Below are positions 6,001-34,800 of a stretch of DNA of 40,491 bases, piece after piece (position 1 is the stretch's first letter; every line of letters starts with the position of its first letter). The notes beneath the pieces are model-generated. The model saw only the letters and a list, made by a program, of their open reading frames with translations, searched no databases and was not told where the DNA came from. The position numbers and the translations under genes are program-made. Source of the stretch: Chloroflexota bacterium (GTDB taxonomy: Bacteria; Chloroflexota; Anaerolineae; B4-G1); the NCBI GenBank assembly GCA_024232355.1, contig JAAEPW010001302.1:1-40491 (forward strand). Reading direction: 5' to 3'.

Positions 6001-7222
6001 CCCGGTGGACGATGGTGCAGCCACTGCCCTGATTCCCGAGCACACTCAGTTCTACGCGGCGACGGGTAACCATAGCGCCAATGGTCAATATGTGAACTGG
6101 AACCTCGATCCTCTGGGATCTAACTTTGAGGAGTCAGTGCTGCTAGTGGTACTGGTTGATCCGGTTTTGCCAAACCTGACATTGATCGAAAATCACGCCA
6201 CCTTCACTGGTGAGGGAGAAAGCGTCGAGGACGACGATACAACGACGGTGACTTCGGCTCCTGATATGAGCACCTCGGTCAAGCAAGTTGACAAGAAAAC
6301 GGCCTTTGGCGCGCAGACTATAGTCTATACCATCATCCTGAGCAACACCGGGACGATGCACGCCAGCACGGTGATTATGACGGACACCATTCCAGAGTAC
6401 ACCAGTTACGTGCTGGGCAGCGTCTCTGGCGGCAGTTACGATCCGGCAGCACAAGCCATCACGTGGGAAGGGCCGCTAAACGTGGGCGACTCGGTTGGGA
6501 TTCAGTTCAGCGTACTCATCGCCGAACCGGACCTGATACCACCCTATGCGGTTGTCCGCAACGTGGCATTGGTAGATGATGGTTACGATGGTCACAAAGT
6601 ACTCACGCTCCAGGCAGACGACACTGTAATCGAGGGCGGAAACGCGCCTGATCGATACAAGATTCACATGCCGATCATCTTTAGAGCATACGAGTACATT
6701 CTTGTGCCTGACATAGAGTTGGTCATTATGAACTGTGGGGACACTGATGCATTCGGAACCTTCTTGATTGACTTGTACATTGATCCTGATGAAAGCTCTT
6801 CGTACTGGCCTATCAGCTATGGAGAAGGATATCAATGGTTTGGGCAGGAGGGGGCTAGCTTTGATGTTGGCGCGCTTGCTGCTGGTCAAAGTCTAACACT
6901 TTATCTGGATGACGCTAAGGAAGGTTTGTCCAATTCTCTGCCTGTGTCACCCACATTGTACGCTCAAGTGGACTGGTGGAAAGATGCAGTCAGCTCAGGT
7001 GTGGTAGATGAAGGCACAGACGGAGAGGAGAACAACGTCGCTGACAGCAACGGCAGTGTGTGCAACGCCACACCTGGTAAGCCTGATTTGATCGTGGTGA
7101 GTATCAGAAGAGTGTCACGATTGGTAATTGTTTCCAATAAGGATGCGGGTCAACAGATGGACGGAACTCAGTTTGAGGGAATACTACCTGCTCCACCGCG
7201 ACCTCAACCGCCACAACCGTAA
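2..7222 (+). CDS. Giant DUF11-repeat surface protein, 5' end outside the window
   Basis: The frame is open from base 2, and the residues before the GTG at 53 already match the repeat consensus, so that GTG is an internal codon and the N-terminus lies off-window. At least 2406 residues are visible. About 18 tandem DUF11-type beta-sandwich repeats of 120-140 residues fill nearly all of it. Each opens with S-x-H-x-L-x-x-x-K, followed by Y-T-I-x-W/Y, GNEPA, V-x-W-x-LG, PLP-x-GT and ending in TTV-x-S. Repeats 15, 16 and 18 belong to a second subtype (APD...K-x-VD...). The tail after about 6650 is different: a diverged (Y/F)LPLV-like block (KIHMPIIFRA), a CARDB-like domain (PDIELVIMNCGD), the start of a second one (KPDLIVVSI) and a Pro-rich end. 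DUF11 arrays occur in large extracellular stalk or adhesin proteins; the ligand is unknown. No membrane anchor is visible. A hairpin follows the stop. Confidence 0.93.
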   Translation, partial: PASASQQTTVRSSHTLDVDKDGPTNTSPDALIEYTIDWSVDGNEATDNLVIEDNTPDNTTFFSAEGTASIDDPGMGNSGLVRWHLDEQLPGASGTVTLTVRADTPLGNGTIIENEAAISDDNDGATDSDTVLTTVGSSHGFVLDKDDHVQTTIAPDQVINYTIHWRVTGNEPAQNVAITDSIPLDASFESCGACVLQGDYVRWNLGVHNPGDEGDVFLQVRVDTPLPDGTVITNTAYIFDENDGLAEEDTTHTTVSSDHDLVLDKQAPSAVAAGDEIGYTIGWSITGDEPAFGVVLTDTVPVNTTLVSIADGGVETPPGSGLIVWNLGDQEPGDTGAVHFTVQTISPLPDGTDIVNTAYASDDDGKTGEDSAVTEVTSGHGFDITKSDSVDPVDAGDPLEYTIEWSVTGNEPAEDVIVQDTLPDDVTFVSASPGGAETPPGSGIVVWNLAGPYAPGEGETLTITVDVDSPLANNTQLLNAVTIEDANGGMPGSDTETTLVHSDHALQVSKISLPNPVSAGGQITYTINYTVTGNEPAPGVRVEDVVPEHTTFAWATPGYSLIGTLVRWDLGDLDPGDDGTLILVVTVDSPLPSDTTIYNSVFIEDEDDESDSDTEETSTSGGHTLSLSKTGMPNPINPDQIINYTIHWEVSGNEPAQNVVILDPIPANTQYASGGVLMPGNYVQWNLGSHNPGDSGDVTLQVRVDTPLPNGTIITNIADISDGNGGAPDTATTTTTVESDHSLGVSKSAPSAVEAGGQIVYTIDYAVYGNEPAVGVIITDRVPANTSYTPGTCQPSGTCSEADGVVTWDLGNLIPSSGETVQYTADVMSPLPDGTVITNTAYISDGDGKEDQSTAYTIVTSGHGYSIAKSDDGYDPVQAGGQIVYVIDWALSGSENAEGVTIEDTLPGDVSFVSATDGGTHSGELTGGTVTWNLGDQTAGASGTVNVTVDVDEPLDNNTLLENLVQVSDDNGGLPSSDTEQTTVNSAHTLDVEKSANAATVQAGGQIMYTIAWAVDGNETAQNVVIVDNTPGHTTFVTADSSPAATIQTPGLGNSGPVRWLLGNQLPGATGVVTLVVDVADPLDNGTVIPNTATIGDDNGGNPDDSDADVTVESAHQLDVNKSGEGSVVAGQIVHYTIGWNVSGNEAAYSVVITDQVPANTTFVNCSGGDSCNHALGTGIVTWQLGNRDPGASGNVNLQVQTVSPLPNGTQIENTAYIFDSNAGGSDESSWITLVGSGHTFNLNKVGAPDPVEAGGLLNYSIEYEVVGNETAYGVVITDRVPVSTTLDWIGDGGTQVGGVISWTLGDLDPGNTGSVHFRVRVDTPLPNGVYVYNDAVIYDTNGGYAETSDETLVHSDHTLQVSKSDDPDPVQADSLLTYTIHYRVMGNEPAPNVVIQDDVPADTTFVSASGGTFDGSTVRWELGNLVPGDEGDVIMVVRTDALLPDGTFIFNQAYISDDDGAFAASLQERTTLQSTHDLHLEKYDTGYDPVQAGAELVYTIHYAVTGQELAEGVTIQDDIPANTGYVSCDGGTLCSMAGNRVTWFIGDVLPGESGAVTLTLQTNSPLDDGTVIYNEATINDDNGGVPTSADEETLISSGHDLAITKVDLEDPVPAGHLLTYHINYEVLGNQTAHGVVITDQLPSGVVFQSASGTYTGPDANGVMTWTLGNLAPGAYGPIVVTVRPDSALPDGTVLVNTAAIFDDDGYRAEVSETTTVVQAVLDASTKMVDKANAAPDEQLQYTIRLVNEGGKDAQAVNVQDVLPGDVTYLSGPLVDPPDAGDGYYDYTHRTIVWNGDLNAGAVVSLTYSVWVNNPLDDGTIIENTAELNYQGTRTLGPISTTIHSAPDLTNSTKTVDRAFATAGEEVEYTITLVNDGNMNGDAVWMTDTLPANVTYEDDLWWSHGMAAYASGVVTWTGQVNVGEPATIRYKVRLADTLVGGDVITNVATVNDGFAGHAPFEIGPAVTEIGSAFSVSIDDGRETVVPGEFLTYTITFRGEDPVDDGAATALIPEHTQFYAATGNHSANGQYVNWNLDPLGSNFEESVLLVVLVDPVLPNLTLIENHATFTGEGESVEDDDTTTVTSAPDMSTSVKQVDKKTAFGAQTIVYTIILSNTGTMHASTVIMTDTIPEYTSYVLGSVSGGSYDPAAQAITWEGPLNVGDSVGIQFSVLIAEPDLIPPYAVVRNVALVDDGYDGHKVLTLQADDTVIEGGNAPDRYKIHMPIIFRAYEYILVPDIELVIMNCGDTDAFGTFLIDLYIDPDESSSYWPISYGEGYQWFGQEGASFDVGALAAGQSLTLYLDDAKEGLSNSLPVSPTLYAQVDWWKDAVSSGVVDEGTDGEENNVADSNGSVCNATPGKPDLIVVSIRRVSRLVIVSNKDAGQQMDGTQFEGILPAPPRPQPPQP
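35..6640 (+). repeat. Array of about 18 DUF11-type repeats (360-400 bp units)
   Basis: Coding tandem repeats inside the surface-protein gene. Repeats 1-14 are one subtype (opening S-x-H, with the GNEPA motif). Repeats 15, 16 and 18 use a second subtype (K-x-VD-K/R, LVN-x-G). Repeat 17 is the most diverged. Similarity between units is obvious at protein level and partly at DNA level, which makes misassembly or copy-number error possible here. Confidence 0.85.
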
Positions 7223-8342: not shown

Positions 8343-10283
8343 CTATTGGTTGACCATTACCAGGGGCAAGAATACGTACTGTGTGGTCGGCTGAATGTGG
8401 ATGAAATCGCTGGCGGGCGAGGTCTCAATGTTTCCTTCACCATCTACCGAGTAAGCCTGTATCTGGTGGTTGCCAGGGCTCAAGGTGCTCAGGTCTATAG
8501 TGAGGTCAAAGTCCTCTTGGGGCTCGTCAAAAGTTCCATCATTAGCGATGAGAGATTGCCAAGGACCATTATCGATGCGGTAAAACATATCCGCAATGTG
8601 ACTGACTGCCGATGAACCGTGACCATTGTACACGACGGTCGTCAACTCGTCACCCTCAACCTGCTGCGCCATCCGTGTCATTGTCGTGTCGAGGATGTTG
8701 TCTACCGGGTCTATTACCGAGATGGTATCAATCGTCTGGATCAATTCGTTGCCGGCCGAGTCGAGGACGCGCAGGTCAATGTCCAGATCACCGGTGGGCA
8801 AGGGTTGGGTGGTAACAATAAAACTCTCGGCGTAAGTATCGAATTTGCCGTCTGTGGGTTGGGCATCCATCCACTCACCGCCCGCTATTCGGTATTGTAT
8901 TTGTTCTACTGTGTTGATGGTGACACTGCGGCGCAGGGGTGAGGGATAGGGATCGTCCTGCACGCTGCCGGTAAAGGTCAACACGTTGGATTGAGCTACA
9001 CTGGTCACGATCTTGCTGCTGACAACGCTCAACGTGGTGTCCATCGGGTCGAGAATGCTGTCACCGTCGGAATCGCGCCAGCCGATCTGTCCGCGGGCAT
9101 ATTCGTCAATTCGTCCGTTGGTGTAGGGTGAGATCTGACCACGCATGATGCTAGGTTCGTTCGAGATGCAACTCCCGTACTGACTGTTTTGATTCTCCAC
9201 ACCCAGATAGCCTGATTGAAAGGTGCATGGTTGATGAGCTGCGGTGTATTGGTCTAGAGCGTGAAAGATGTGACCAGTTTCGTGGGCGGCGACGGCGTCA
9301 ATGTTTTCAGGGCCATAGTGATAGTTGTTATAGGTCATCACAAAGAAGGGGCCTCCCAGGTAAGCGTAGGCAAAGCGTCCGTTGGCAAAGCGTCCGTCGC
9401 TGTCGGCGGAACTGTCTACCACAAAGATGGTAAAGGCCCAATCGGTGTCATAGGTGTCGCGCAGGTCGTTATTATAGTTGCGCACCTGGTCGAAATATGA
9501 CGAATTGGTATAGCCTCTGGTCGCCATTATCTCAGAGATCCAATAGGATTGGTCACCATATTGGCGGCTAATCGGTTCGTAGCTGGTGGAGGTGGGGGCA
9601 GAAGTTCCATCGTCGTAGATAAAGGTGATGTGAGCGTTCGGTTCGAGGGTAGCCCACCAATTGAGGGCAGCGGTGATCTCGCTCAACACTTGCGCTCGTT
9701 CGTCTGCTGTCCAGTCTTCAGTGGATGCATCTATACTGCCATTGCTCTCAGGTAGGACAATTCCCACAGCCACGCGACCGATCAGGTACTCGCTGGTCTC
9801 GGCATAGCCGGGAATTGGATAATGGGTGGGGGCGAGGGGCTGCATCCCTTCAGGAGGTGGGGCATCCATCGCGCTGCCAGCCAGGTCGGTTCCGATGGTG
9901 TCCAGGTCCTGGGTTGTGTTAGAGTGAGTCAAAAGCCCGTTCCACACCTGGGCGGCGCGACGCGCTTTGGTGCTCAGTGCCGTCAAGGCCAATTCATCTA
10001 CTATCTGGCGATAAACGGTCAGTTTGCTGCTGGAGAAGGACACTCCAACAGGTACATCGGCAATGAGGGCAATCGATGGGAAGATATGAGTCACATGCCC
10101 ACCAGCCTGCTCAATGACCTCAACGGTTGCGTTGATGTCAGTACCTGGTGCAAGCAGTATCAGTGCTTGGTTTGATGGGGAGGCAGCCAGAGCCTGGTCA
10201 ACCTGAACTAGGGAACTAGCGAATGATAATGTTACAAGACCTATACTAAAGATTGTCCGTAAATTTGAGTTTTTTTCGCCCAT
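8343..10283 (-). CDS. Secreted metzincin-like metallopeptidase with C-terminal Ig-like domains
   Basis: A 646-residue protein. The frame is open further upstream (to 10544), but ATG at 10283 is preferred: it has GGGGAGAG just upstream and begins a proper signal peptide (residues 1-34, ending QALAAS). After a propeptide-like stretch (LILLAPGTDIN...GGHVTHIFPS, 41-70, resembling peptidase I9-type prodomains) comes the catalytic domain with HETGHIFHALD (334-344). The zinc ligands would be H334, H338 and, at the position of the third metzincin ligand, D344; E335 is the catalytic base. SIMRG (378-382) looks like a Met-turn. Two beta-sandwich domains follow (about 415-630). The C-terminus is YVFLPLVMVNQ, a version of the (Y/F)LPLV block shared with other proteins here. 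It probably cleaves extracellular protein. The Asp third ligand recalls snapalysin (M7), but overall family assignment is uncertain. Confidence 0.85.
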   Translation of the reverse strand: MGEKNSNLRTIFSIGLVTLSFASSLVQVDQALAASPSNQALILLAPGTDINATVEVIEQAGGHVTHIFPSIALIADVPVGVSFSSSKLTVYRQIVDELALTALSTKARRAAQVWNGLLTHSNTTQDLDTIGTDLAGSAMDAPPPEGMQPLAPTHYPIPGYAETSEYLIGRVAVGIVLPESNGSIDASTEDWTADERAQVLSEITAALNWWATLEPNAHITFIYDDGTSAPTSTSYEPISRQYGDQSYWISEIMATRGYTNSSYFDQVRNYNNDLRDTYDTDWAFTIFVVDSSADSDGRFANGRFAYAYLGGPFFVMTYNNYHYGPENIDAVAAHETGHIFHALDQYTAAHQPCTFQSGYLGVENQNSQYGSCISNEPSIMRGQISPYTNGRIDEYARGQIGWRDSDGDSILDPMDTTLSVVSSKIVTSVAQSNVLTFTGSVQDDPYPSPLRRSVTINTVEQIQYRIAGGEWMDAQPTDGKFDTYAESFIVTTQPLPTGDLDIDLRVLDSAGNELIQTIDTISVIDPVDNILDTTMTRMAQQVEGDELTTVVYNGHGSSAVSHIADMFYRIDNGPWQSLIANDGTFDEPQEDFDLTIDLSTLSPGNHQIQAYSVDGEGNIETSPASDFIHIQPTTQYVFLPLVMVNQ

Positions 10284-10805
10284 CTCACTCTCCCCATAAC
10301 CCTGGCTTTCACTTGTTATTCTAGTGGTGGGCCATTTCACACACCGTTTCGCCAATCGTGTCAAAAACCGTGTCAAAAAGATTGGGAATTCGAACTTGAG
10401 ATTTAGTTCAAGTGTAGGGAAGGAAACTGCGGTTCTTTGAGATTTCGTGTGGTGCTCGGCTCGGATTCGAGGAACAAAACGATGTTTCTTGGGCTGTGAA
10501 ACGAGTGACAGATTTGGACATCCAAGTTGTGACTCGGAGGACACCGACTAAACTATTAGACTTGTCAGGGATGCTGGTAGAGAGTCAATGTCAAAGTTAA
10601 GGCTTGCAAAGACCTGCCAGGTTTCCACTAGAGCTTTTGTGAGCCAGATTTGACCCGATTAGCAATGTATCTTGGGTGTAACTCTGAAACTGTGAGGTTT
10701 GCTATACCTCCACATATTGAGCCTAATTGCAGTCTAATCCCTAGCTGACTTATTATCACATCAGAGTGGGAGTAAAATGGGACCAAGTCAAAAAGGAGGA
10801 AAAAG
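10284..10805. other. 522-bp intergenic region between divergent genes
   Basis: It holds the probable promoter of the metallopeptidase, a 12-bp direct repeat, and a short palindrome acctgccaggt (10612-10622) of REP-like appearance. No convincing gene was found. The upstream extension of the peptidase frame (10284-10544) encodes no recognisable sequence. Confidence 0.5.
10318..10380 (-). promoter_or_regulatory. Possible promoter (TAGAAT) with a tandem TTTTTGACACG repeat
   Basis: On the minus strand a TAGAAT -10-like hexamer (10318-10323) would start transcription about 28 nt before the ATG at 10283. Its -35 position is weak. Two abutting 12-bp direct repeats (TTTTTGACACG, 10357-10380) lie upstream and could be an operator or an alternative -35 pair. 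This is inferred from sequence only. Confidence 0.28.
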
Positions 10806-11303: not shown

Positions 11304-12149
11304 TCACTGGGCCGAATCAACTCCTGATTTGGAAACGACGAGTGTGGCCGTATAATTTGGCTGCTCTTCCTGAGTGTTGCCACCTTTGTCAGTTTTTCCC
11401 GGATATGGGTCCAGGGTGACGAGCTCAAACAGGTATGAATCAAACACGCCTTCCACACTGTTGCTGGTGGGGTCTACCAGTCCAGCCTCCAGCGTCAGCT
11501 CTTGGATACCAAAACCAAGGACATCACCGCTGCTGGAAACTCTGATCAGAATCCTCGCTCGCCCTGCCCAGACACAAACAACGTCGGTTGGGCATCGCGA
11601 GTCTTCGACAACCTCTACGAATTCCACAATGGGACCTTGTGGCTCGATCAATGCCGTTTGACCGACCTCGAGTTGGAACGAATTATTTAGTTCGGTCAAT
11701 GTCTGATCAAGGGCCGGTTCTGAACCCTGCGTGATGAATGTCTCGGTAACGTCGTTCACTAGGACGGTGTACGTTGTGCCAGGCTCCAAATCGCTGCCTA
11801 GGGGAATGTTGTTTTCGACCGTCTCGTACACCTCTATGCATCCAATGTCTGCACGCTCTTGGTTGATGACCGCCACTCGGATAGTGTCGCCCTCACGGGT
11901 CACCGTATACCTGTCAAATTTCACGCAGGCGTTGGGCAGTCCCGACTCGACCAGTAAAAAGTACTGGGGCGGGAAAGATTCCGCTATCAGAATCTCAACT
12001 CTGTCAATGGAGGCTAGCACATCGACTGCCTGGGGAGTGATGGTATCCGCTGGCGCTGGGGACTGATTCCTGGCGCAGGCAGTTATCGCCAAGATCAAAA
12101 GCACATAGAATAGAGTGATGATCGTAAATCGCTGGTTTTTGGTAGACAC
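11304..12149 (-). CDS. Secreted lipoprotein with SRCP-type C-terminal domain
   Basis: A 281-residue protein. Start is GTG at 12149, with GGGAGG 5 nt upstream. The signal peptide ends in the lipobox AITAC, with lipid attachment at Cys25. Residues 45-140 form a beta-rich domain of unknown function with C75 and C104. Residues 155-275 contain F-x-L-x-x-GQ and EDSRCPTDVVCVWAGRA (182-198), a signature of small secreted proteins of unknown function seen in several phyla; C186 and C192 may form a disulfide. It starts 22 bp after the oxidoreductase gene and is probably the last gene of a three-gene operon. No enzymatic motif is visible. Confidence 0.85.
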   Translation of the reverse strand: MSTKNQRFTIITLFYVLLILAITACARNQSPAPADTITPQAVDVLASIDRVEILIAESFPPQYFLLVESGLPNACVKFDRYTVTREGDTIRVAVINQERADIGCIEVYETVENNIPLGSDLEPGTTYTVLVNDVTETFITQGSEPALDQTLTELNNSFQLEVGQTALIEPQGPIVEFVEVVEDSRCPTDVVCVWAGRARILIRVSSSGDVLGFGIQELTLEAGLVDPTSNSVEGVFDSYLFELVTLDPYPGKTDKGGNTQEEQPNYTATLVVSKSGVDSAQ

Positions 12150-13207: not shown

Positions 13208-13699
13208 CTATTGGGACGGCGTGATTTTGATGACGAATGTCAGTGCATCCTCAGTGATCGTGACGGAAGTGAACTCGACCTCGCCGGTGTCTGATGCAGA
13301 TTTGGCGAACTCTTTGGTCAGTGTGTCATTGATGCGGGTGATACGCTTGTCGTTGAGGTCGATCCCAGAAATATTCACGGCAGTGATTTCGGCCTCAAGC
13401 ATGCCGTCCTGAGCAGTGAGAGCCAGGTCGCAACTGCCAGGCACAATTGTACCATCCTCACGCTCATATGTGCCGTTTATGCGGATAAAGCCGTCTTGCA
13501 TATCCACACTGCTGACCTCGACCAGTAGATCGTCTGGGCCACTGGTGACCGTCGAGTTTTGAATAATGAGATTGACATCCTCCTCGCTCAACGTGATAGG
13601 GATAGTCGCACTCCCACCACAAGCGAGCGCTAGCACAGCTAGGGTCAGCGGCACGAGCAAGAAAACCAACTTTGCGCGAGATAACGTTTGTTTGTTCAT
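13208..13699 (-). CDS. Small secreted lipoprotein of unknown function
   Basis: A 163-residue protein from ATG at 13699, which has AAAGGAG 7 nt upstream. A longer frame to 13744 lacks a signal at its start. The hydrophobic signal ends in the lipobox LALAC, then G-G. The mature part alternates beta strands (SEEDVNLIIQNS, LLVEVSSVDMQDGFIRI, FTSVTITEDALTFVIKI) and has one further cysteine. It has the look of a small lipid-anchored beta or SRPBCC-like fold, but I do not recognise the family. It is first in a minus-strand run with the oxidoreductase and a second lipoprotein, and is preceded by a palindrome cluster that could be its operator. Confidence 0.8.
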   Translation of the reverse strand: MNKQTLSRAKLVFLLVPLTLAVLALACGGSATIPITLSEEDVNLIIQNSTVTSGPDDLLVEVSSVDMQDGFIRINGTYEREDGTIVPGSCDLALTAQDGMLEAEITAVNISGIDLNDKRITRINDTLTKEFAKSASDTGEVEFTSVTITEDALTFVIKITPSQ

Positions 13700-13717
13700 G
13701 ATCTTTCTCCTTTTTTT

Positions 13718-13758
13718 GTCAAGATTGACGATTGGCAAATCCAATTTGACTTGGTCAA
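13718..13758 (-). promoter_or_regulatory. Three adjacent palindromes upstream of the lipoprotein-MDR operon
   Basis: Three perfect inverted repeats sit nearly end to end: GTCAAgaTTGAC (13718-13729), ATTGGcaaatCCAAT (13731-13745) and TTGACttgGTCAA (13746-13758). The GTCAA/TTGAC half-site occurs four times, in mirrored arrangement. They lie 19-59 bp upstream of the ATG at 13699, where a repressor would block transcription or initiation. Operator function is inferred. Confidence 0.45.
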
Positions 13759-14659: not shown

Positions 14660-17600
14660 ATGAAGAACAAGATTTTTCGCAACCTAACAACTATTCTGGT
14701 TTCACGTCGTCACCTGCTGTGTGGCCTTGGTTTTTTCATCATCCTTTTTTGGTGGTCCACACCTGCCTATGCTGATGAGATCATTTTTGATGAATTCCCC
14801 GACTGGCTTCCGGTTGATGAGAACGATCCATATAGCATTGCTTGGGGAGATGTGGACGGCGATGGCGACCTCGACTTGGCAGTGGGAAATAATGGAGTGA
14901 ACCGAGTATACGAAAATCAGCAAGGCATGCTGGAAATATCTGCCAGTTGGACTGCTGCCGATAATGATCAGACGGAAAGTGTCGCCTGGGGGGACGTAGA
15001 TGGCGACGGTGACCTCGATTTGGCCGTGGGGAACAGGGACCAACCGAATAGGGTGTATGAGAATGTTGGTGGTGTCTTGGATACCACTGCCACCTGGACA
15101 TCAGCCGTCAGTAATACCACGCTGAGTGTGGCTTGGGGTGACGTGAATGGCGATGGCTACCTTGATCTGGCCGTGGGAAACGATGGCGAGAACAAGGTGT
15201 ATGTAAATCTGACCGGAACGCTAGAAACCACCGCCAATTGGACCTCGGTCGAGACTGATACCACGACCAGCGTGGCCTGGGGTGACGTGAACAATGATGG
15301 CGATCTCGATCTGGTTGTGGGGAACCTGGATCAACCGAATGTGATGTATGAGAATTTAGAAGGGAACCTGGAAAACTCGGCCAGTTGGCATTCCCTCGAA
15401 ACTGATCCAACTGAGAGTGTGGCACTGGGGGATATGGACGAGGATGGTGATCTTGACTTGGTCGTGGGCAATGGAGGGGGTACGAGTGGTGCGTCCAATC
15501 GCGTGTATTATAACGAAGGTGGGAAACTGAACCTTGGGGCTAGTTGGAGTTCAGTGGACGGTGATTCAACGCAGAGCGTGGCCTGGGGGGATATGGACGG
15601 TGATGGCGATCTCGATTTGGCTGTGGGCAATATTGGCGCGTTGAACAAAACATATGAGAACATGGATGGCACCTTGTCTCAAATGCCCTATTGGTCTTCG
15701 GGTGAAATGGGCACCTCACACAGCGTGGCCTGGGGAGATATGGATGGCGACGGCAACCTCGACTTGACCACTGCGAATTCCAGCGAACCGGTCAAAGTGT
15801 ACCTAAACAGCGATACGGTTTTGGAAACTATGGCTACCTGGACGTCACCGGTCAGCGATACTACCAGGAGCGTCGCTTGGGGAGACATGGATGGTGATGG
15901 CGATCTCGACCTGGCCGTGGGCAACGACGGTCAAAGCAATAGGGTGTACGGCAATGACAACGGGACGCTAGAGACCATCGCCATTTGGACATCGGTGGTC
16001 AGTGATGCCACCACCAGCGTAGCCTGGGGAGACGTGGATGGCGACGGCGATCTTGACTTGGCCGTGGGCAACGATGGTCAAGCCAACAATGTGTACGAGT
16101 ATGTCAATGGCGTTTTAAACTCCACCGCCGCTTGGACCTCTGCCGCCAGTGATGCCACGCAAAGCATTGCCTGGGGGGACGTGGATGGCGACGGCGACCT
16201 CGACCTGGCCGTGGGCAATGATGGTCAGACCAACAAGGTGTATGAGAACATCGATGGGGCGTTGGAAACCACCGCCACGTGGACCTCTAGCGATAGCGAT
16301 GCCACGCAAAGCATCGTCTGGGGGGACGTAGATAACGACGGCGATCTCGACCTGGCCGTGGGCAACGATGGTCAAGCCAATAAATTGTACGAGAACGTCA
16401 ACGGGGTCTTGGGCAGCACCGCTGTTTGGAGTTGTACCGTGGTGGCCCCAACGTCTGCCCTGGCCTGGGGAGATATGGATGGTGATGGCGACCTTGACTT
16501 GGCTGTGGCGAACGTTCTTTTTCCCAACCAGGTCTATGAGAATGTGGACGGCGTCTTGGCGACTGACGCCGATTGGATGTCTACTGAGAGTTCTTGGACC
16601 TCTGCCATTGCATGGGGTGATATGGATGGCGATGGCGACCTGGATTTGCTGGCGGGCAATGATATGGGCAGCGTGGTATATGAGAATGACCAGGGCGCGT
16701 TGCCTGCAATGGGAACACCGATCGCCCTAGGTCATGATGGGCAAGACATCGCCTGGGGCGATGTAGATAGCGACGGCGATCTCGATTTGGCGATGGGAAA
16801 TGCGAGTCAAAACAAACTCTATTTGAACACCCGCAACATTCGGGTCAGCCAGACTTCGGTCCCCCGGTTGAGTCTGTCCCATCTGCCCTACCAAGCTGAC
16901 TTTTACGCCATGGCCGATGTCGTGGCCGACCCGGTCGTTCCCATTACGTACACCCTCGAGTATCCTGACGGATATCCTCCGGCCTCTAGCGAGGCTTTTT
17001 ACTCCCTGAATGGGGGTGGGCAATGGCTTTCGGCGGTGACTGCCACGGATACCGTCGTCGTCGAAACTGAGATTGTTACTACCACTATGCTGGTCAATAG
17101 GTATCCTCACACGGATGAAATATCGCCATCTTTGGTTATTCCTGAACTCGGCACGATCACCTCGACCCTGGTCCTGACGCCCAGCGACGTCATTGTCGAT
17201 TTGAGCGTGCGGCTGTGGTTCACCCATACCGACATCGGGGATTTGGTAATCGATTTGATCAGTCCACTGGGAACAAAAGTTTCATTGATGAATCAGCGAG
17301 GTGGGCCACAGAATCACTCTGGGGAAATCGTCTTTGATGATAAAGCTGGAGCATCTATTTCTACCAGTTCCCCTCCTTTTACGGGCACATACCGCTCTGA
17401 AGACCCACTGATGATTTTAGACGGACAGCCTCTGACCGGAACGTGGAAACTCGTCATTAGGGACGTCTTTGCTCCCCCTCCATTTCCTCCCCCGCCTCCT
17501 CCATCGACAGGCACATTGATCAATTGGGGGCTGGAGACTGTGGTTGGGCAAAGGGGTGTGCAAACCTCGACCAAAACCACCAATGTCTACCAATGGGACG

Positions 17601-20449
17601 TGTTGGAGAGTGGTGTCCTGGGGCAAAGTGACAACGTTGTCTTTCGAATGCGGGCGTTGCCGGCCATTTCGACTACTGCCAACGCCGTCCCTGGCCCTTA
17701 CCTGTACGGCTCGTATGGTGCTAATGGCTATCCCTTCCGCTTGCGGGGCAGTCAGGTGCGGGTGATGTCTGGCACTAGTCCAATTTCCAATGCACTGGTT
17801 TATCATCTGCCCGTGGGCTACTCTACGGGGGGCGATCTCATCACCGATGATACGGGAACGCCCTTCCGCACCAACGTCGATGGCTACCTACAAGGCCGTG
17901 GTGAGATCGGCGTAGGCGATCAATTGGTGGCCTTGCTTCCCATCACTTGGACCGAAAGCTACACGCTGTACTATACCAACGGCACTCCCACGTCTACCGG
18001 CATAGACGTCTACGAGGTTTCTGCACAGGGTGTGCAGACTATTACCGTCTCTGCCGACAACCCCATCATCCTGTTCGACCTGGATGTCTCTTTGGAGTGG
18101 GACGCTCACAACGACGAAGCGTACTTGGAGCAACTTGAATTCAATTTACGGCGCGCTTCCGAGTATTTGTACGACTTTACGAACGGCCAGGTAGCTGTGG
18201 GAAATATCAATGTCTTTCAGAATGCCGACGAGTGGGTCTACAGCCACATCGTCGTTCAGGCCAACAATCGTCTGCGCCCCTTTGCCGCCCAAGGTGGTAT
18301 CGTCGTTACCGATACGGTCGATCCGCACCACAACACCGTCACCGACACTATCCTTTACAGTCCTGGTCAACTCACGATGGGCTCTAACTGGAACCGGTAC
18401 GGCAACCCTGGCCAATCGTTGGGCGATGATTGGTCCATCATCTTGGCCCATGAATTGGGCCATTACTTGCTCTTTCACGATGACGTCTACTTGGGGATGG
18501 ATGAGAATGGCTATTTGATCTCTGTAGATACCTGTTATGGCAGCGCGATGGGCGATCTGTACAGCGATCCCGACAACACCGAGTTCATCGCCAAAGAGGA
18601 TGTATGGCAGACTCAGTGTGCCGACACGTTGGCCGAGCAAACGTTGGGCCGCAACGAGTGGGAGACTATGCAACTGTGGTATCCCGAGTTGATCACGCCT
18701 ACGACGGTCAATGCAGGCCCTTCCATCATGCCCTTTGACTTTACCGACGTCAGCATCCACGATCCCTACACGCCCACAGACACCTTGATAGACCCAACGT
18801 TTTACATCGACTATGAGGATGGGGGGAGTAGTTCGTCCGAAGCACGCGCTTATCTGGATCGCGATCTGTACGTCATCAATTTGGGCAGTCCCTACGGCGG
18901 ACAGAATCGGGTGGTCGCCCACGGAGCCAAGCCCGGCGACCGGCTGTGCGTCTTTGATCGTTCGCAGGCCCAGTTTGGCTGCGAGACTGTTGAGGAAGGC
19001 GATAACCGCCTGACGATGCGGCAGGACCAAGATTGGAATCCCATCATCCAACTCAACCCGGTCAACTCGACCACGTTAACGATCAATGTGACCAATACGG
19101 TTCCCATTACTCATGTCCTGTGGGCGCGCATCTTTCCTGACCTGAGCTATGGGGAGGATGCCGTCAGCCTGACCCTCTCCGGCGGTGTGTACACGGGCAC
19201 CTTTGACCTGACCTACCCGGCGATGAATGGCAACATTCAGGTATGGGTGGATGAAACCGATACCGAAGCGTACTCCCGCCGGGAGGCGATGGTGGCGTAC
19301 AGCATTGGTGGCAATTCGGGCTACTTGCGGGGTGGCGGTGGCTACCTTCGGGGCGGCGGCGGCTACTTGCGGGGCGGCGGCGGCTACCTTCGGGGTGGCG
19401 GCGGCTACTTGCGGGGTGGCGGCGCTCCCATTGTTAGCCCAGATGGACAAATGACCTTTTTCACGCAGAATCCGGTTGACTTTGAGGTTGGTACTTTTTT
19501 CACCATTCAAGGGATGGCAGGTTTGCCATCCTTGCCTCCGGGGCGCACCTTGGTGGGGCAGGGATACAACCTGGTCACCTCACCGGGAGTCACTATGCCT
19601 ATCGGTTCGGTCAGCATCCAGTATCTGAGCAATGATGTATTGGTGGCTGGCGCTACTGAAAATGACTTGATGCTCTACTTTTGGGATGGTAACGATTGGC
19701 TAGTCCTCAACACGGTACTGGACACGTATTTCAACCTGGCCTCCGCCCCAAGCCAGGGAGAAGGGGTATACGCCCTGATGGCCAGCGTCAGGATCCCACT
19801 CTACGGTCCTGGCTGGAACAACATTGCCTATCCGGTGCAAGAAACACAACCGGTTTCCGAGGCCCTGCTCTCTATCAGTGGTTACTATACCACTGTCTAT
19901 GGTTATGAACCCACCGACGTGACGAATCCCTGGAGGGTGTATGATGTTACCGCCCCCTCGTGGGTCAATGACTTGGATGAGCTCGAGTTTGGGAATGGAT
20001 ATTGGATCAATGTGTCTCAAGGCATCACCCTGTATCTGGCCAGCGACACATCCGCAAGCTCGCAGTCCGTTATGCACGACCAACCACCTCGATCCGCGCA
20101 ATCCGTAGTGTCTCTACCCCCCGCTACGTTTTACGGTATGGTATCGGGCGATCAAATTGACTTTGTCCCAACCGTCGGGATGGAGGTAACCGCCTGGATA
20201 AGTGGCACACTGTGTGGACAGGGCCAAACTTTGGCAGTGAACGACCAAGTCGCATATACGGTCAACGTCTTTGCCGCTGGCGCGAACACACACGCTGACT
20301 GTGGCGTACTCGGACGGATCGTATCTTTTCGAGTGGAGGGATATGAAATGGGCACAACGGCGACTTGGAACAATCATCAGCTGTGGCAGTTGATGTTGAC
20401 GGGTGTCGAAACGAGGGTGTACCTACCACTGGTTATACGTCTTGAGTAG
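14660..20449 (+). CDS. Giant secreted FG-GAP / P-domain / metzincin-like protein
   Basis: A 1929-residue protein; ATG with GGAGGA 6 nt upstream. Domain order: signal peptide (1-39, ending PAYADE); fourteen FG-GAP/VCBS repeats (about 58-730), each with WGD-x-DGDGDLDLAVGN, a calcium-binding Asp loop; a P/Homo-B (proprotein convertase P) domain (about 820-960) interrupted by a poly-Pro loop; a Ca/beta region; and a zincin domain with HELGHYLLFHD (1264-1274), where H1264, H1268 and D1274 would bind zinc and E1265 catalyse. A GYLRGGG repeat follows at 1554-1588, then a YFWDGNDW-type beta domain, a WNNIAYP...YWIN domain (about 1715-1795), and the C-terminal VYLPLVIRLE. P domains usually follow subtilisin-like catalytic domains; none is present. 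It is likely a cell-surface or secreted protease. Co-transcription with the cNMP-binding protein suggests cAMP-linked control. Its last 17 bp overlap the convergent cyclase gene. Confidence 0.9.
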   Translation: MKNKIFRNLTTILVSRRHLLCGLGFFIILFWWSTPAYADEIIFDEFPDWLPVDENDPYSIAWGDVDGDGDLDLAVGNNGVNRVYENQQGMLEISASWTAADNDQTESVAWGDVDGDGDLDLAVGNRDQPNRVYENVGGVLDTTATWTSAVSNTTLSVAWGDVNGDGYLDLAVGNDGENKVYVNLTGTLETTANWTSVETDTTTSVAWGDVNNDGDLDLVVGNLDQPNVMYENLEGNLENSASWHSLETDPTESVALGDMDEDGDLDLVVGNGGGTSGASNRVYYNEGGKLNLGASWSSVDGDSTQSVAWGDMDGDGDLDLAVGNIGALNKTYENMDGTLSQMPYWSSGEMGTSHSVAWGDMDGDGNLDLTTANSSEPVKVYLNSDTVLETMATWTSPVSDTTRSVAWGDMDGDGDLDLAVGNDGQSNRVYGNDNGTLETIAIWTSVVSDATTSVAWGDVDGDGDLDLAVGNDGQANNVYEYVNGVLNSTAAWTSAASDATQSIAWGDVDGDGDLDLAVGNDGQTNKVYENIDGALETTATWTSSDSDATQSIVWGDVDNDGDLDLAVGNDGQANKLYENVNGVLGSTAVWSCTVVAPTSALAWGDMDGDGDLDLAVANVLFPNQVYENVDGVLATDADWMSTESSWTSAIAWGDMDGDGDLDLLAGNDMGSVVYENDQGALPAMGTPIALGHDGQDIAWGDVDSDGDLDLAMGNASQNKLYLNTRNIRVSQTSVPRLSLSHLPYQADFYAMADVVADPVVPITYTLEYPDGYPPASSEAFYSLNGGGQWLSAVTATDTVVVETEIVTTTMLVNRYPHTDEISPSLVIPELGTITSTLVLTPSDVIVDLSVRLWFTHTDIGDLVIDLISPLGTKVSLMNQRGGPQNHSGEIVFDDKAGASISTSSPPFTGTYRSEDPLMILDGQPLTGTWKLVIRDVFAPPPFPPPPPPSTGTLINWGLETVVGQRGVQTSTKTTNVYQWDVLESGVLGQSDNVVFRMRALPAISTTANAVPGPYLYGSYGANGYPFRLRGSQVRVMSGTSPISNALVYHLPVGYSTGGDLITDDTGTPFRTNVDGYLQGRGEIGVGDQLVALLPITWTESYTLYYTNGTPTSTGIDVYEVSAQGVQTITVSADNPIILFDLDVSLEWDAHNDEAYLEQLEFNLRRASEYLYDFTNGQVAVGNINVFQNADEWVYSHIVVQANNRLRPFAAQGGIVVTDTVDPHHNTVTDTILYSPGQLTMGSNWNRYGNPGQSLGDDWSIILAHELGHYLLFHDDVYLGMDENGYLISVDTCYGSAMGDLYSDPDNTEFIAKEDVWQTQCADTLAEQTLGRNEWETMQLWYPELITPTTVNAGPSIMPFDFTDVSIHDPYTPTDTLIDPTFYIDYEDGGSSSSEARAYLDRDLYVINLGSPYGGQNRVVAHGAKPGDRLCVFDRSQAQFGCETVEEGDNRLTMRQDQDWNPIIQLNPVNSTTLTINVTNTVPITHVLWARIFPDLSYGEDAVSLTLSGGVYTGTFDLTYPAMNGNIQVWVDETDTEAYSRREAMVAYSIGGNSGYLRGGGGYLRGGGGYLRGGGGYLRGGGGYLRGGGAPIVSPDGQMTFFTQNPVDFEVGTFFTIQGMAGLPSLPPGRTLVGQGYNLVTSPGVTMPIGSVSIQYLSNDVLVAGATENDLMLYFWDGNDWLVLNTVLDTYFNLASAPSQGEGVYALMASVRIPLYGPGWNNIAYPVQETQPVSEALLSISGYYTTVYGYEPTDVTNPWRVYDVTAPSWVNDLDELEFGNGYWINVSQGITLYLASDTSASSQSVMHDQPPRSAQSVVSLPPATFYGMVSGDQIDFVPTVGMEVTAWISGTLCGQGQTLAVNDQVAYTVNVFAAGANTHADCGVLGRIVSFRVEGYEMGTTATWNNHQLWQLMLTGVETRVYLPLVIRLE
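14834..16835 (+). repeat. Fourteen FG-GAP/VCBS repeats (about 140-150 bp units)
   Basis: Coding repeats with the core S-x-AWGD(V/M)-D-x-DGDLDLAVGN, followed by a variable strand (N-x-VYEN-x-x-G-x-L-E) and W-x-S. The Asp-rich loop is calcium-binding in FG-GAP/VCBS beta-propellers. Fourteen blades exceed a single seven-bladed propeller and would fit two. Confidence 0.88.
19319..19423 (+). repeat. Five 21-bp repeats encoding GYLRGGG
   Basis: Five perfect 7-residue copies. Copies 1, 3 and 5 use TTG for Leu and copies 2 and 4 use CTT, so the array looks like duplication of a 42-bp dimer. It lies between the peptidase region and the C-terminal beta domains and would be a flexible, positively charged Gly-rich linker. 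Confidence 0.92.
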
Positions 20450-28817: not shown

Positions 28818-31800
28818 TCAATGGTTTCGTAGTACCAGCGGCAGGTAAATAAAATGCTGCTGCTCGGACAGTGCTGCCCACAAGCTAAAGTGATCGGGTG
28901 TGGCGGTGATGGTATTGGCCTCGGCATCTACTATGCTGGTCGGCTCCTCCATCCACGCGTTGCCATCCCAGTAGTATAGGGCCAGGTCGGCCTCATTGAC
29001 CTCGGGTGGCACATCTTCTTGCTGGTAGGTTACAGTGATCGTGTATCGCTGCCCTGGTGACAGTTGCGCCGGCAGCCCATTGGACAGGCAAGTGCCGTGC
29101 AGCTTGTAAAAGAGGCCGACGTTCTTCAACGATCCAGTATCGGTGACGGGTTGCTTTGCATAATGGATCACCACTGTGTCAGTAAAAGTGCCACCGAGAA
29201 TGGTGATCGTTATCCCGGGCGATGGCGTGACACTCCCACCAGACGGGGGTATAGTTGCGACGACCGTCACCACAGTCGTGGTCGTCACCGTGTTGATCGA
29301 GTTGGTGGCAGTGACCAGGGCCGTGTAGACGCCAGCATATTGGTAGATGTGCGTCACGACGTCTCCGCTGGCTGTCTCCTCATCGCCGAATGCCCAGGTG
29401 TAGGCCACGTGGGTACCGGTTGTGACGGTGGCCGTCAGTATAGTGGGCTGGCCCAGATGTGTGGGACTGTCGTTGGTTGCCGCAAGTCCCACAATAGGCT
29501 TTTCGGCAATGGCAGCAGTGGTGGTAAAGCTCCACGTCGGCCCGACAACCATGCTGATGCCATCGGTGGCTGTGATGACCCAATAGTAGATGTTGCCGGT
29601 GATGAGACTGGGCGTGTAGCTGGTCAACGTGGTCGTGTCAACAACCGGTGGTTGACCGCTGGTGTTGATGGCGATGGTATAGGTCACTGTGTCACCGATG
29701 TCGGGATCGCCGCCTTGCCAACTGAGGGTTTGAGTAATGGGTATGTCGCTTGCGCCGTCGATGGGGATGGGGTTGGTGGGAGTGTAAGGAGCCTGGTTGG
29801 GCAGCACGATGAAGGCAGTGGAGACCTTGGCATAGATGCCTGTCGCACCTTCTACAGTTGTGACCTGTACTACATTGGTCAGCGGTCCGGCATAGCCCAG
29901 CTCCACGGTGACGGCGAACGTATACGACCAAACATCTTTGGGCACGATAATGACCGGTGTCCAGGTGAGTGTCCCACTGGGCACGATCAACGTCCCACCG
30001 GGGGTTTGGCCCTGCGTGATGTTATCAGGCAGGGTGTCGATGACAGTGGCAGTGAGCGTCATAGTGCCGGTGTTGGTGATGTGGATGGTGTAGGTCAACT
30101 GACCACCAGACTGCACTGGGTCAGGTTCGGCCTGCTTGGTGATGACCAGCGCACTCATCGAGAGCTCGTCTGCGCCGATGTCGGGATACCCATCGGTGCG
30201 TGGGTCGCCGTCCATGTCGTCGGGCACACCTGCGTCTACACCTGCGTCGACTGCCGCGCTGTCAAGGGTAATGTGATAATCCCTTGCGTCGGGGTTCACA
30301 AAGGCCGGGTCGCCCCAGAGGTCGACTGTGCCTGTGATGATTGTGCCATCACCATCCCAGTCAGTTTCGTTGGCCCAGGCTCCGCTGCCCCACAGGGTGC
30401 CTTCCAGCTTGGCCTCACCATTGGCGACGTAGACGCCCACGGTGTGACTGACCAGGATTGTGTTGGTCAAGACCGCACTGCCATCGCCTATGTGCATCCC
30501 ACTGCCATCGCCGCCAGTGTTGCGGGCAATGGTGGTATGCAGTAGGCGGGCCGAGGCGCTCTGAATGTACAGTCCACTCCCGTTGTTGTTTGCTTGGTTG
30601 TCGGCGATGACGTTGTTAGTCAATGTGGCGTCACCCCCCTCCAGGAACAGCCCGCCGCCCTGGTCAGCGGTGTTGCCGGAGATGATGTTCCCAATCAGTG
30701 TACCGCCACCGTGTACTCCACCGCCGTTACCGTAGGCGGTGTTTGAGGTCACTGTGTTGCCGATCAGTGTGCCCTCGCCGTGCACCCCACCGCCATGGCC
30801 ATTGGAAGTGTTAGAGGAGATGGTATTCCCGTTGAGCGTGGCAGTGCCATCATCCAGGAACAGCCCCCCGCCGTCACTAGATTGGCCGGTGACGGTGTTG
30901 GTGGAGACAGTATTCCCTTGGAGCGTGGCGACGCAGTCTTCTAAATACAACCCACCGCCGCCGCCAACATACTGGTTTGTGGTAGTGTTGAGAGTAACGG
31001 TGTTTCTACTGAGAGTGGCGTCGCTGGACCTCAAGTACAGCCCGCCGCCGAAAAAGATAGCGGTGTTGTTGAACACTTGGTTGTCCCTGATGATGGCCGT
31101 GGCGCTGATGACGTACACCCCGCCACCGGCATGCTCCCACTCATACGGACCACCGCCCAGCCCGTCTGCATCGCCACCGGTGATGCGCAGGCCCTCGACC
31201 GTGGAGCTAATGCCTGCACCAGGCGCAGGTGCCGTGACATACAGCACCCTACCTTGTCCTTGTGCATCCAACGTTGTCGGGAAACTGATCACGTTCCGCT
31301 GCGTAAAAGTGGTATTCCAGCCACCCTGAAGGGTGAGTGTTTTGTCGACGTAAACAATCTGGGCCACACCGGCCCTAGAGGTCACCCCCGTGCAATAGCC
31401 GGCTACCTTGACTACATCGCCCGACTGCGTGCTGGCGTCCACCGCTGCCTGGATAGAGCCATATTTGATGGGGCTGTCATTGAGTCGGACGTGACAGATC
31501 GATGTGTCGGCATAGGCGGTGTGGCTCGTCGTTTCGGTGGCGGTCACCCAAGCAGTGTTCCGCATCAGCCAAAGTAACTGGGCAGGTGGTGTCGTCGTCA
31601 CCTGAGCAGTGAGGGTGACGTGGGCGCTGTAGCCTGGTGCCAGCGTGCCCAAGTCACAGGTAGAAACACCGCCCCAGCCCGTGCCGACCACACAACTACC
31701 CTGGCTGCTGGTGATATCAACCGCGCGCTGTAAGGCGGGCAGAGTGTCGATGAGTTGGACGTGGGTCGCCGTATTTGCCCCGACATCGGTGATGACCAGA

Positions 31801-34800
31801 GTATAGGTAAAAGTCTGACCAGTGTTGAGCCCAGACGGCCAGACATCTTTGTGCAGGCGCAGGCTGGCACCAGTCCGTTCGTCGGCGCCGATATCATAGC
31901 CGAAGGCTGCTGGGCGTGGGTCGCCGTCTATATCGACAGTGATTCCGCTAGCGATGCCCGCATCCACAGCCAACGATCCTGCGCCGATGTGATAATCGCC
32001 GCTCGTTGGGTTCACGAAATCCGGATCATCCCAGAGGTTGATCGTGCCGGTGACGACCGTGCCATCACCGGCACAGTCGCTCTCGTTGGCCCAGGCCCCG
32101 CTGCCCCACAATGTGCTTTCCAGCGTAACCGTGCTGCCCTCGGCAACGTGGACGCCCACCGTGTGGCTGACCAAGATGGTATTGGTCAAGGCTACGGTGG
32201 AGCTACCCCAGTAGTCAAAGACATAGACTCCGCTGCCGTCGCCGCCGGTGTTGTGAGCGACAGTATTGTGTAGCAGGTAGATGGATGAACCCCGGAGGCA
32301 TAGCCCACTGCCGCCGGCATTGGCCTGGTTGTCGGCGACGATGTTGTTGGTCAAAGTGGTGTCATTCGAATTCAGGTACAGTCCACCGCATTCGCCGTTG
32401 CTGGTGTTGTTGGAGATAGTGTTTCCTCTGATCGTGGGGCCACTGCTCTCCAGGTACATCCCGCCACCACTGTTATTGGCGGTGTTGTTGGAGATAGTGT
32501 TGTTGATGATCGTGGCGCCGCTGTCTTTCAGGTACATCCCACCACCACTGTCATTGGCGGTGTTGGAGATGACCGTGTTGCCACTGAGCGTGGCGTTGTC
32601 GGTGTCCTCTAGGCACACCCCGCCACCACTGCCATTGGCGGTGTTGGAGATGACGGTGTTGCCACTGAGCGTAGCATCACTGCCGATCCCCAGGTACACT
32701 CCGCCACCACTGCCATCGGCGGTGTTGGAGATGACGGTGTTGTCACTGAGCGTGGCGTTGCTGAATATCAAGCACAGTCCCCCGCCGTTGTTATCTCCCC
32801 AGTCGGTGGCGGTATTGGAGGAGATAGTGTTGCCACTGAGCGTGGCGTCGCTGCCTTCCAGGTATAGTCCACCCCCGTCACCGGCAGTGTTATTGGAGAT
32901 AGTGTTGCTGATGATCGTGGCGTCGCTGCCTTTCAAGTGCAGCCCACCCCCCTCGTTGTTGGTGATAGTGTTGCTGATGATCGTGGCATCGCTGCCTTCC
33001 AAGTGCAGCCCACCCTCGTGGTTGTTGGTGATCGTGTTGTTGATGATCGTGGCGTCGCTGTCTTTCAGGTACAGCCCAGCTCCCTCGTCACCTTCAGGGG
33101 GGTTGTTGGTGATCGTGTTGTTGATGATCGTGGCGTCGCTGTCTTTCAGGTACAGCCCATTCCCAGCACCTTCATCGGAGGTGTTGTTGAACACTTGGTT
33201 ATTGCTAATGGTGGCCGTAGCGGTGATGATGTATATTCCTCCTCCAGCATCGACATCATAGCACCAAAGGGCACACGCAGTGTCGCCGCCCAGCCCGGCT
33301 GCGTTGCCTCCAATGATACGCAAGCCCTCGACCGTGGGACTAATGCCTGTGCCTGGCGCAGGCGCTGTGATGTACAGCACGCGCCCCTGTTCCTGCGCGT
33401 CCAATGTGGTGGGGAAACTGGTCACGTTCCGCTGCGTGAAGGCGGTATTCCACCCCCCCTGAAGTGTGAGCGTCTTGCTGAGGTAGGCGATTTGAGTGAG
33501 ACCATCCCGCGATGTCACCCCTGTGCAGGTTCCGGCCACTTTGACTATGTCGGCCGGTTGAGTACTGGCGTCCACCGCTGCCTGGACAGTTTCATATTCG
33601 ATGGGGCTGTCATTGAGCCGGACGTGACAGTCGTGCAGCGTGGTATCGACGTAGGCGGATCTGCTCATCGTTTCGGTGGCCGTGACCCAGGCGGTGTTGC
33701 GCATCGAAACAGGTAGCTGTGCGGGAGGCGTCGTCGTCACCTGCGCGGTGAAGGTGATGTGGGCGCTGTCGCCCGACGCTATCGTGCCCAGGTCACAGGT
33801 GGTAGTGTCACCCCAGCCCGCGCCGGCCGTACAACTGCCGTGGGTGGTAGTGATGGCCACCGCTCGTTGCAGGGTGGGCAGGGTGTCGGTGAGCCAGACG
33901 CCCGTTGCCGCCTCCGCCCCGGTACTGGTGATGTCCAGGGTGTAGGTGAGGGTCTCACCGGGGTTGAGCGTGAGCGGCCAGACGGCCTTGCGCAGGCGTA
34001 GAATGGTATCGGCCCGTTCGTCGGCGCCGATGTCATAGCCGCTGCCCTGGGGGCGTGGTTCGCTATCTATGTCGTCGTCCACATCTGTGGTCACACCTGT
34101 GTCAAATGCTGCGCTGTCAGGACCGATGTGATAGTCTCCGTTGTAGGGATCCACAAAGTCCGGGTCATCCCATAGGTTGACCGTGCCTGTGATGATCGTG
34201 CCATCGCCGCCCCAGTCGGTGTCGTTAGCCCAACTCCCATTACCCCACAGGGTACCTTCCAGCGTGGCCGTGTTATCCGTTTCGACAAAGATGCCCACGG
34301 TTTGGCTGACCAGGATGGTGTTGGTCAGGGCTACGGTGCTGTAAATACAACCCATTGAGCAGTACCTTGTCACATACACCCCGTTGCCGCCACCGGTGTT
34401 GCGAGCGATGGTGGTATGCAGCAGGCGGGCTGAGGAGCCCTCGATGTACAGCCCGTTGCCAGCGTTGTCGGCAATGATGTTGTTGGTCAATGTGGCGGTG
34501 GTCCAGTAGTATAGGTATAGCCCATCGCCAGCGTTGTCGGAGATGATGTTGTTAGTCAATGTCGTGTCGCTAGAATATAGGTACAGCCCGTTACTAGCGT
34601 TGTCGGTGATACTACTGTCTTTCAGAGTCAGGTTACCTCTGCACGAAATGCCGGTTGACCCATTTTGAACGACAAAGCGCTCAATAATGACGGTCACGCC
34701 ACTGTTCACAGTAATACCCGAGCGCCATCCCTCGCCATCAATGGTAGAGGCGCCACTCTGCGTGGTAAAGGTGTCATCCCACCCACCGGAGAGACTCGCA

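Follow-up and report, generated by a model that had tools for sequence, protein, structure and literature searches.

What is the function of a block of about ten residues with which four otherwise unrelated proteins end, all of them encoded on the same contig of a Chloroflexota bacterium (GTDB lineage Anaerolineae; B4-G1; NCBI assembly GCA_024232355.1, contig JAAEPW010001302.1)? The whole stretch of 40,491 nucleotides that was analysed will be referred to as the window, and the block, [VI](Y/F)LPLV followed by 3-4 residues, as the YLP box. We consider it likely that the YLP box is an ultrashort C-terminal sorting or retention signal of Sec-exported, non-lipidated Chloroflexota proteins, which is read outside the membrane; the tag probably directs its carriers to the cell surface. 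Genomes using it tend to carry relatives of a surface-anchoring enzyme of another phylum. A tag present on roughly one tenth of the secreted-like proteins, as counted in the sampled fifth of one genome, provides a direct handle on how proteins are attached to the surface of Chloroflexota. The phylum is regarded as monoderm, yet in a study with tomograms outer layers and protein layers were seen, part of them of unknown composition (PMC13319060).

The near-identical C-termini reported by the first-pass annotation are all present in the sequence. VYLPLVIRLE (20417-20446, plus strand) closes a 1929 amino acid (aa) exported FG-GAP/P-proprotein protein (14660-20449), and IYLPLVLRNH (28821-28850, minus strand) a 2086-aa exported protein (28818-35078) with beta-helix, DUF11 and PKD domains and a choice-of-anchor Q match. 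VFLPLVMVNQ (8346-8375, minus strand) is the end of a 733-aa zincin-like protein (8343-10544) with an export-like N-terminus and a weak match to Reprolysin_5 below the cut-off; this copy lacks the basic residue that hardly varies elsewhere, being R or K in 96 of 99 boxes. The fourth box, VYLPLVLKNY (39319-39348, minus strand), terminates a 5′-truncated Ig/PKD gene (39316-40221) with in-frame stops upstream, no signal peptide and an intact box end. Three of the positions are exactly those first annotated, whereas the range 8346-8378 runs one residue beyond the ten-residue box; the proteins do end shortly after LPLV, with 3-4 residues following. The carriers are indeed otherwise unrelated, and the last residues of all four are free of a hydrophobic helix of the LPXTG or PEP-CTERM kind, as had been noted. 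When all six frames of the window were scanned for terminal boxes, only these four closed an open frame of more than 300 codons; seven other matches were located in frames of 2-179 codons and were poor likenesses. Given that LPLV occurs 24 times in a related genome (340,785 residues), about 0.004 terminal LPLV would be expected by our own arithmetic for a dozen window genes, compared to four observed. Two window proteins (11304-12149 and 13208-13744) have an N-terminus that resembles a lipobox; neither of them has the box.

The consensus of 99 distinct ends is [RK]-V-Y-L-P-L-V-x-[RK]-(N-[YHF]), with R in 79 and K in 17 of them at the basic position two after V. Proline was found in all 99 and the tyrosine position was occupied by Y (90), F (6) or W (1), counts that are partly due to construction because the selecting pattern required P and admitted only Y, F, W, H, I or V where the tyrosine stands; the set moreover includes one or two chance members (e.g., L063 and L169 16212-16652). 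The box is C-terminal and not equally common inside proteins, which agrees with the initial description. For the single-contig genome G167, of which 1.2 of 5.8 Mb (826 called proteins) were sampled, 19 occurrences of [YFW]LP[LVIMFP][VIL] were counted, six of them terminal compared to 0.42 expected. A test independent of any motif covered 711 proteins of a related genome that share no C-terminal homology, and the top ten residue triples enriched within their last 12 residues all derive from V(-8)Y(-7)L(-6)P(-5)L(-4)V(-3)R(-1). The enrichment (p 1.1e-11 over 138,508 tests) had no counterpart of similar strength in internal windows, which reached 4e-7 at best; C-terminal homologs had been removed beforehand, as copies of one transposase-like protein otherwise dominate. 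Three proteins (P0009, P0013 and P0026) are exceptions with an extension beyond the box. That of P0026 consists of a further domain of ~140 aa behind a box-like VYLPLIVKGW and ends in YNNILGPV; similar ends recur in P0001, P0002 and P0069, possibly representing a second kind of C-terminal module.

As a motif, the box is already known. Contrary to the first-pass annotation, which knew of no described system, NCBIfam release 20.0 lists it twice under the description "YLP-box putative sorting motif", in the 11-position entry NF050076 (sort_motif_YLP) and the 10-position entry NF053834 (ultrashort_CTERM), with no enzyme or mechanism named in the entries as displayed. NF050076 was the best NCBIfam match for each of the four window tails (last 40 aa) and also matches in box-rich Chloroflexota genomes. 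The 20417 tail scored 18.7 bits with NF050076 (cut-off 15) and 15.6 bits with NF053834 (cut-off 10), the 28821 tail 13.7 and 13.4 bits, respectively; the 39319 tail reached 12.9 bits and the 8346 tail 12.5 bits with NF050076, which is the sole NCBIfam match of the latter. One tail consequently passes both models, one NF053834 only and two neither, with cut-offs defined for whole proteins and here applied also to 40-aa ends. When the four window proteins were scanned at full length (E 1), a match was reported only for the carrier of the 20417 box (NF050076, 13.7 bits versus a cut-off of 15). No paper on the motif emerged from literature searches that covered it and C-terminal sorting in Chloroflexota.

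At high stringency the box is confined to one phylum. The strict pattern VYLPLVx[KRHQSN]Nx-stop retrieved 45 stretches from 84,980 species genomes, and all 45 are titled Chloroflexi/Chloroflexota or subgroups thereof (Anaerolineae, Anaerolineales, Thermoflexia, Thermoflexales, Thermoflexus and Ardenticatenales). Two matches in viral contigs were rejected as chance, being located opposite phage-like genes and not at the end of any called gene. Within a sample of 161 Chloroflexota genomes (requested at ≥85% completeness), NF050076 matched in 46 at E 0.3, in 44 of them over its cut-off, compared to one of 14 control genomes at E 0.3 and five of 14 at E 1. The pattern VYLPxVx[KRHQNS]-stop gave 32 sites in 16 of the 161 genomes, whereas the backward control gave two sites and a permuted motif none. 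The NF050076 numbers are an undercount, as the NCBIfam model misses variants such as FVPMTTR in genomes that we take to be Herpetosiphon-like.

Signal-peptide-like N-termini were detected in 61 of 70 complete box proteins compared to 163 of 480 other proteins of the same loci; the box thus co-occurs with export signals, in line with its carriers having been annotated as exported. Among proteins with such N-termini, a lipobox was present in none of the 61 box proteins and in 23 of the 163 others (p 8e-4); the difference within G167 alone (0 of 11 versus 32 of 262) was not significant. Signal peptides, lipoboxes and LPXTG-like ends were called by simple custom hydropathy and pattern rules, on genes called by codon bias rather than by Prodigal and with some N-termini wrong. 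None of the ten LPXTG-like proteins among 837 distinct proteins carried the box, and only two of the 115 box proteins of this set contain a C-terminal hydrophobic stretch. For the sampled fifth of one genome, the box was found on 13 of 118 secreted-like proteins, 11 of the 13 having a signal-peptide-like N-terminus; the carrier pattern used for G167 also admits one unlikely member (482 aa, ending WLPVYH). Taking the box as a sorting or retention signal, we suggest that Sec exports the protein without lipidation and that the tag, because it comes without a membrane helix, is read after export, outside the cytoplasmic membrane. This reading would retain the protein in the outer envelope layers.

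The box is independent of the domain in front of it, as the 99 distinct tails follow many different sequences. In the 28818-35078 protein, the final folded domain and a spacer (28851-29270, minus strand) precede the box, and in seven homologs of this terminal domain (P0003, P0007, P0008, P0018, P0027, P0028 and P0029) 5-11 unconserved residues, counted by eye, separate domain end and box. P0056 contains the same domain internally and without a box. One good predicted structure (model mean pLDDT 86.8) shows the box as a coil tail, with a mean pLDDT of 65 at residues 901-910 and 47 at residue 911. Among 82 listed relatives of the C-terminal region of the 28818-35078 protein, many of them linked through the PKD domain only, 31 match the box rule and ten carry the Por_Secre_tail PF18962 instead, two of the latter being named Saprospiraceae; a Halorubrum relative ends in a hydrophobic C-terminal tail. 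Tails swapped behind related ectodomains are the behaviour expected of sorting signals.

To find what might read the box, families were compared across the same 161 genomes, box-rich being defined as at least two box matches (n = 22 versus 139 others). A co-distributed candidate protease, the existence of which had been left for checking, was found: C25 peptidases are present in 18 of 22 box-rich genomes but only in nine of 139 others (odds ratio (OR) 65, p 9e-14), and at a threshold of one box match in 24 of 46 compared to three of 115. DUF11 at five or more copies, serving as cargo control, was detected in 17 of 22 versus 22 of 139, with OR 18-25 at five or nine copies. The link between C25 and box persisted in genomes with at least nine DUF11 copies (counts 14, 0, 5, 4; p 0.014) and was not significant at five to eight copies (2, 1, 2, 11; p 0.14); for 17 hand-picked genomes sharing a high-scoring sortase type it amounted, among the matches listed, to 5, 1, 1, 10 (p 0.005). 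A second set of 25 genomes chosen by the strict box pattern alone contained C25 in 20 (weak in G172 and G173) and sortase in 24. An all-against-all comparison of 750 proteins from box-gene neighbourhoods yielded only cargo-like families and common enzymes as clusters in at least three loci.

The best curated family for all six scanned C25s was NF033707, T9SS sortase PorU (E 9e-50 to 4e-79). Weak matches to the C-terminal part of NF033707 (E 1e-7 to 0.01), seen in further genomes and in G106, were excluded from the counts. H749 and C796 (L181 numbering), which we take from gingipain motifs to be the catalytic His and Cys of C25, are each present in 19 of 20 aligned C25s; in a wider alignment H749 is invariant in 33 sequences and C796 conserved at ≥90%. 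Twelve of the 20 C25 loci fetched represent one type, context A, with C25s of 762-919 aa; relatives of the L181 enzyme are named Chloroflexales, Oscillochloris and Chloroflexaceae. An LPXTG-like gene is located directly upstream on the same strand in eight of the twelve (L178, L179, L181, L182, L185, L188, L190 and L191), seven with LPxT and L178 with LPGAG. The upstream protein of a ninth locus, L189, shows MPQTA, a helix and a basic tail, L194 has a protein ending LPETGRR and a sortase-like gene on the other side of C25, and L186 and L187 are without an LPXTG-like neighbour. Large box-like proteins adjoin C25 in L179, L181, L185, L186 and L187 (FAPMTTR, outside the pattern used) and, convergently, in L182. 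The context B C25s adjoin genes of several kinds (PqqD-like, radical SAM, HPr-kinase-like or signal-peptidase-like) and in some loci also a sortase, functions being read from motifs. The 997-1185-aa C25s of L180, L183, L184, L192, L196 and L197 lie amid several of PqqD-like, radical SAM, HPr-kinase-like and S26-like genes, with a sortase in L197, and by their gene content, likewise read from motifs, these clusters look like peptide-maturation clusters. In the literature searches, neither the statistical link between box and PorU-like C25 nor the LPXTG-C25-box gene arrangement was found in print, and no paper was recognised in which C25 or PorU is tied to protein sorting in this phylum.

Tentatively, we regard a PorU-like C25 as the best single candidate and most likely reader of the box. 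The secreted cysteine peptidase would act on the box by cleavage or transpeptidation, in the way PorU handles the type IX tail, and the neighbouring LPXTG-like wall protein might, speculating from gene order in one conserved arrangement, be its acceptor or platform. The resemblance to type IX secretion of Bacteroidota comprises a C-terminal signal without transmembrane segment that exported proteins carry, the presence of the type IX tail on PKD-bearing relatives of a window protein, and a PorU-group C25 in most box genomes. However, the box has only ~10 residues, whereas the type IX C-terminal domain is a larger beta-sandwich, and the Chloroflexota C25s remain below the PorU cut-off. No type IX C-terminal domain (PF18962, at E 0.1) was found in the four window proteins, and SprA (PF14349) was found in none of 24 C25 genomes, the control genomes likewise giving no match. 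Several results weigh against C25 as the reader. The equivalog cut-off of NF033707 (420 bits) was reached in none of the 161 genomes, the best score being 289.7 bits; C25 is absent from nine of 47 box genomes (4 of 22 and 5 of 25); and most C25s are themselves box-bearing, 15 of 20 matching the box rule. Since the enzyme is missing from these nine genomes and mostly carries the box itself, its link to the box is put forward as a hypothesis only.

A more elaborate version, which we hold possible at a lower probability, is a stand-alone, helix-free sorting system in which a C25 transpeptidase joins YLP-tailed proteins to an envelope acceptor without a type IX translocon. It would be two-tiered, the acceptor in some lineages being the adjoining LPXTG-like protein set in the wall by sortase, and the tail of C25 itself would be altered at the tyrosine so that the enzyme is not consumed. 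The context A C25s carry a recognisable box of their own in 35 of 36 close homologs, only ten of these 35 boxes being aromatic at the tyrosine position (A 10, S 7, F 5, Y 5, M 3, V 2, L 1, N 1, T 1). By the same rule, exported proteins not chosen by their box are aromatic in 45 of 55 (p 6e-7), a number composed of 31 of 31 relatives of the 28818-35078 C-terminal region, five of five C25 neighbours and nine of 19 signal-peptide-bearing G167 proteins, about seven of which look like chance matches. The C25s of the Anaerolineae set that have a box keep F or Y, and L212, L213 and L215 are without box. If a PorU-like enzyme does read the box, anchoring of the PorU type would occur independently of the type IX translocon and the origin of type IX surface attachment would become testable; the claim can be examined on cultured strains and deposited proteomes.

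Nearly as likely as C25 being the reader is passive docking with C25 as cargo. The box would then be a non-covalent docking peptide, a basic-ended beta strand inserting uncleaved into an outer-layer receptor or binding envelope polysaccharide, and the C25s would be degradative enzymes carried to the surface like other proteins. The alternating hydrophobic pattern with basic residues and the extreme shortness of the box fit this explanation, as do the box-rich genomes without C25 and the own boxes of most C25s. Gingipain (C25) is named among the common extracellular peptidases of metagenome-assembled genomes that include Chloroflexi in one study (PMC8359207), and a lattice-like protein layer over an outer layer is described for Litorilinea in the above-mentioned study (PMC13319060), whose reported peptides of the grappling-hook protein GhlA reach residue 6,566 of 6,596. 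However, no receptor was found, and the clusters present in at least three box loci are cargo-like families and common enzymes. Docking also leaves unexplained why the distribution of the box is followed more closely by C25 than by the cargo domain DUF11, and why one type of C25 has an altered box of its own.

It appears unlikely that a classical sortase reads the box, taking LPLV in place of LPXTG. Similar to sortase substrates, box proteins are exported and end in an LP-containing motif, sortase (PF04203) is present in 45 of 47 box genomes, and sortase or LPXTG-like genes adjoin several C25 genes. Nevertheless, the box has neither the T and G nor a hydrophobic helix ahead of the basic end, and separate LPXTG-like proteins, none of ten with a box, are encoded beside box proteins in the same loci. 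Sortase is found in 21 of 22 box-rich genomes but also in 89 of 139 others, including 68 of 115 genomes without any box match, and it was found neither in G169, which has six box matches, nor in G176. A sortase beside a Thermoflexus box gene (L026) was dropped as a lead, a sortase search of 990 proteins giving four, two of them in C25 loci.

There is little probability that the box is merely the last strand of a domain common to the carriers. Its sequence is beta-prone and the AlphaFold model of a small box-bearing family, the GGFW family, is too poor to judge a strand at the box (mean pLDDT 50.7), but the variety of preceding sequences, the variable spacers, the box-less domain of P0056 and the coil tail speak clearly against it. 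PEP-CTERM-like processing by exosortase can practically be dismissed and was rejected by distribution (11 of 161 genomes, one of 22 box-rich versus ten of 139 others), for although the box resembles PEP-CTERM in its position at the end of choice-of-anchor-kind ectodomains, one such domain being present in a window carrier, there is no helix or transmembrane segment in the window proteins.

The GGFW family consists of very small exported proteins (~88-105 aa, TVGQPDAG...GGFWGGA...) with a near-perfect terminal box (L005, L013, L016, L019, L020, L030, L031, L042 and L043). They are the smallest natural carriers of the YLP box and should make good reporters. Elsewhere in the window, an open frame of at least 2389 aa crosses the window start (2-7222); it has no box, and its final residues look unlike the preceding repeats. 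The FG-GAP protein contains a GYLRGGG(G) unit repeated five times in tandem (19316-19423).

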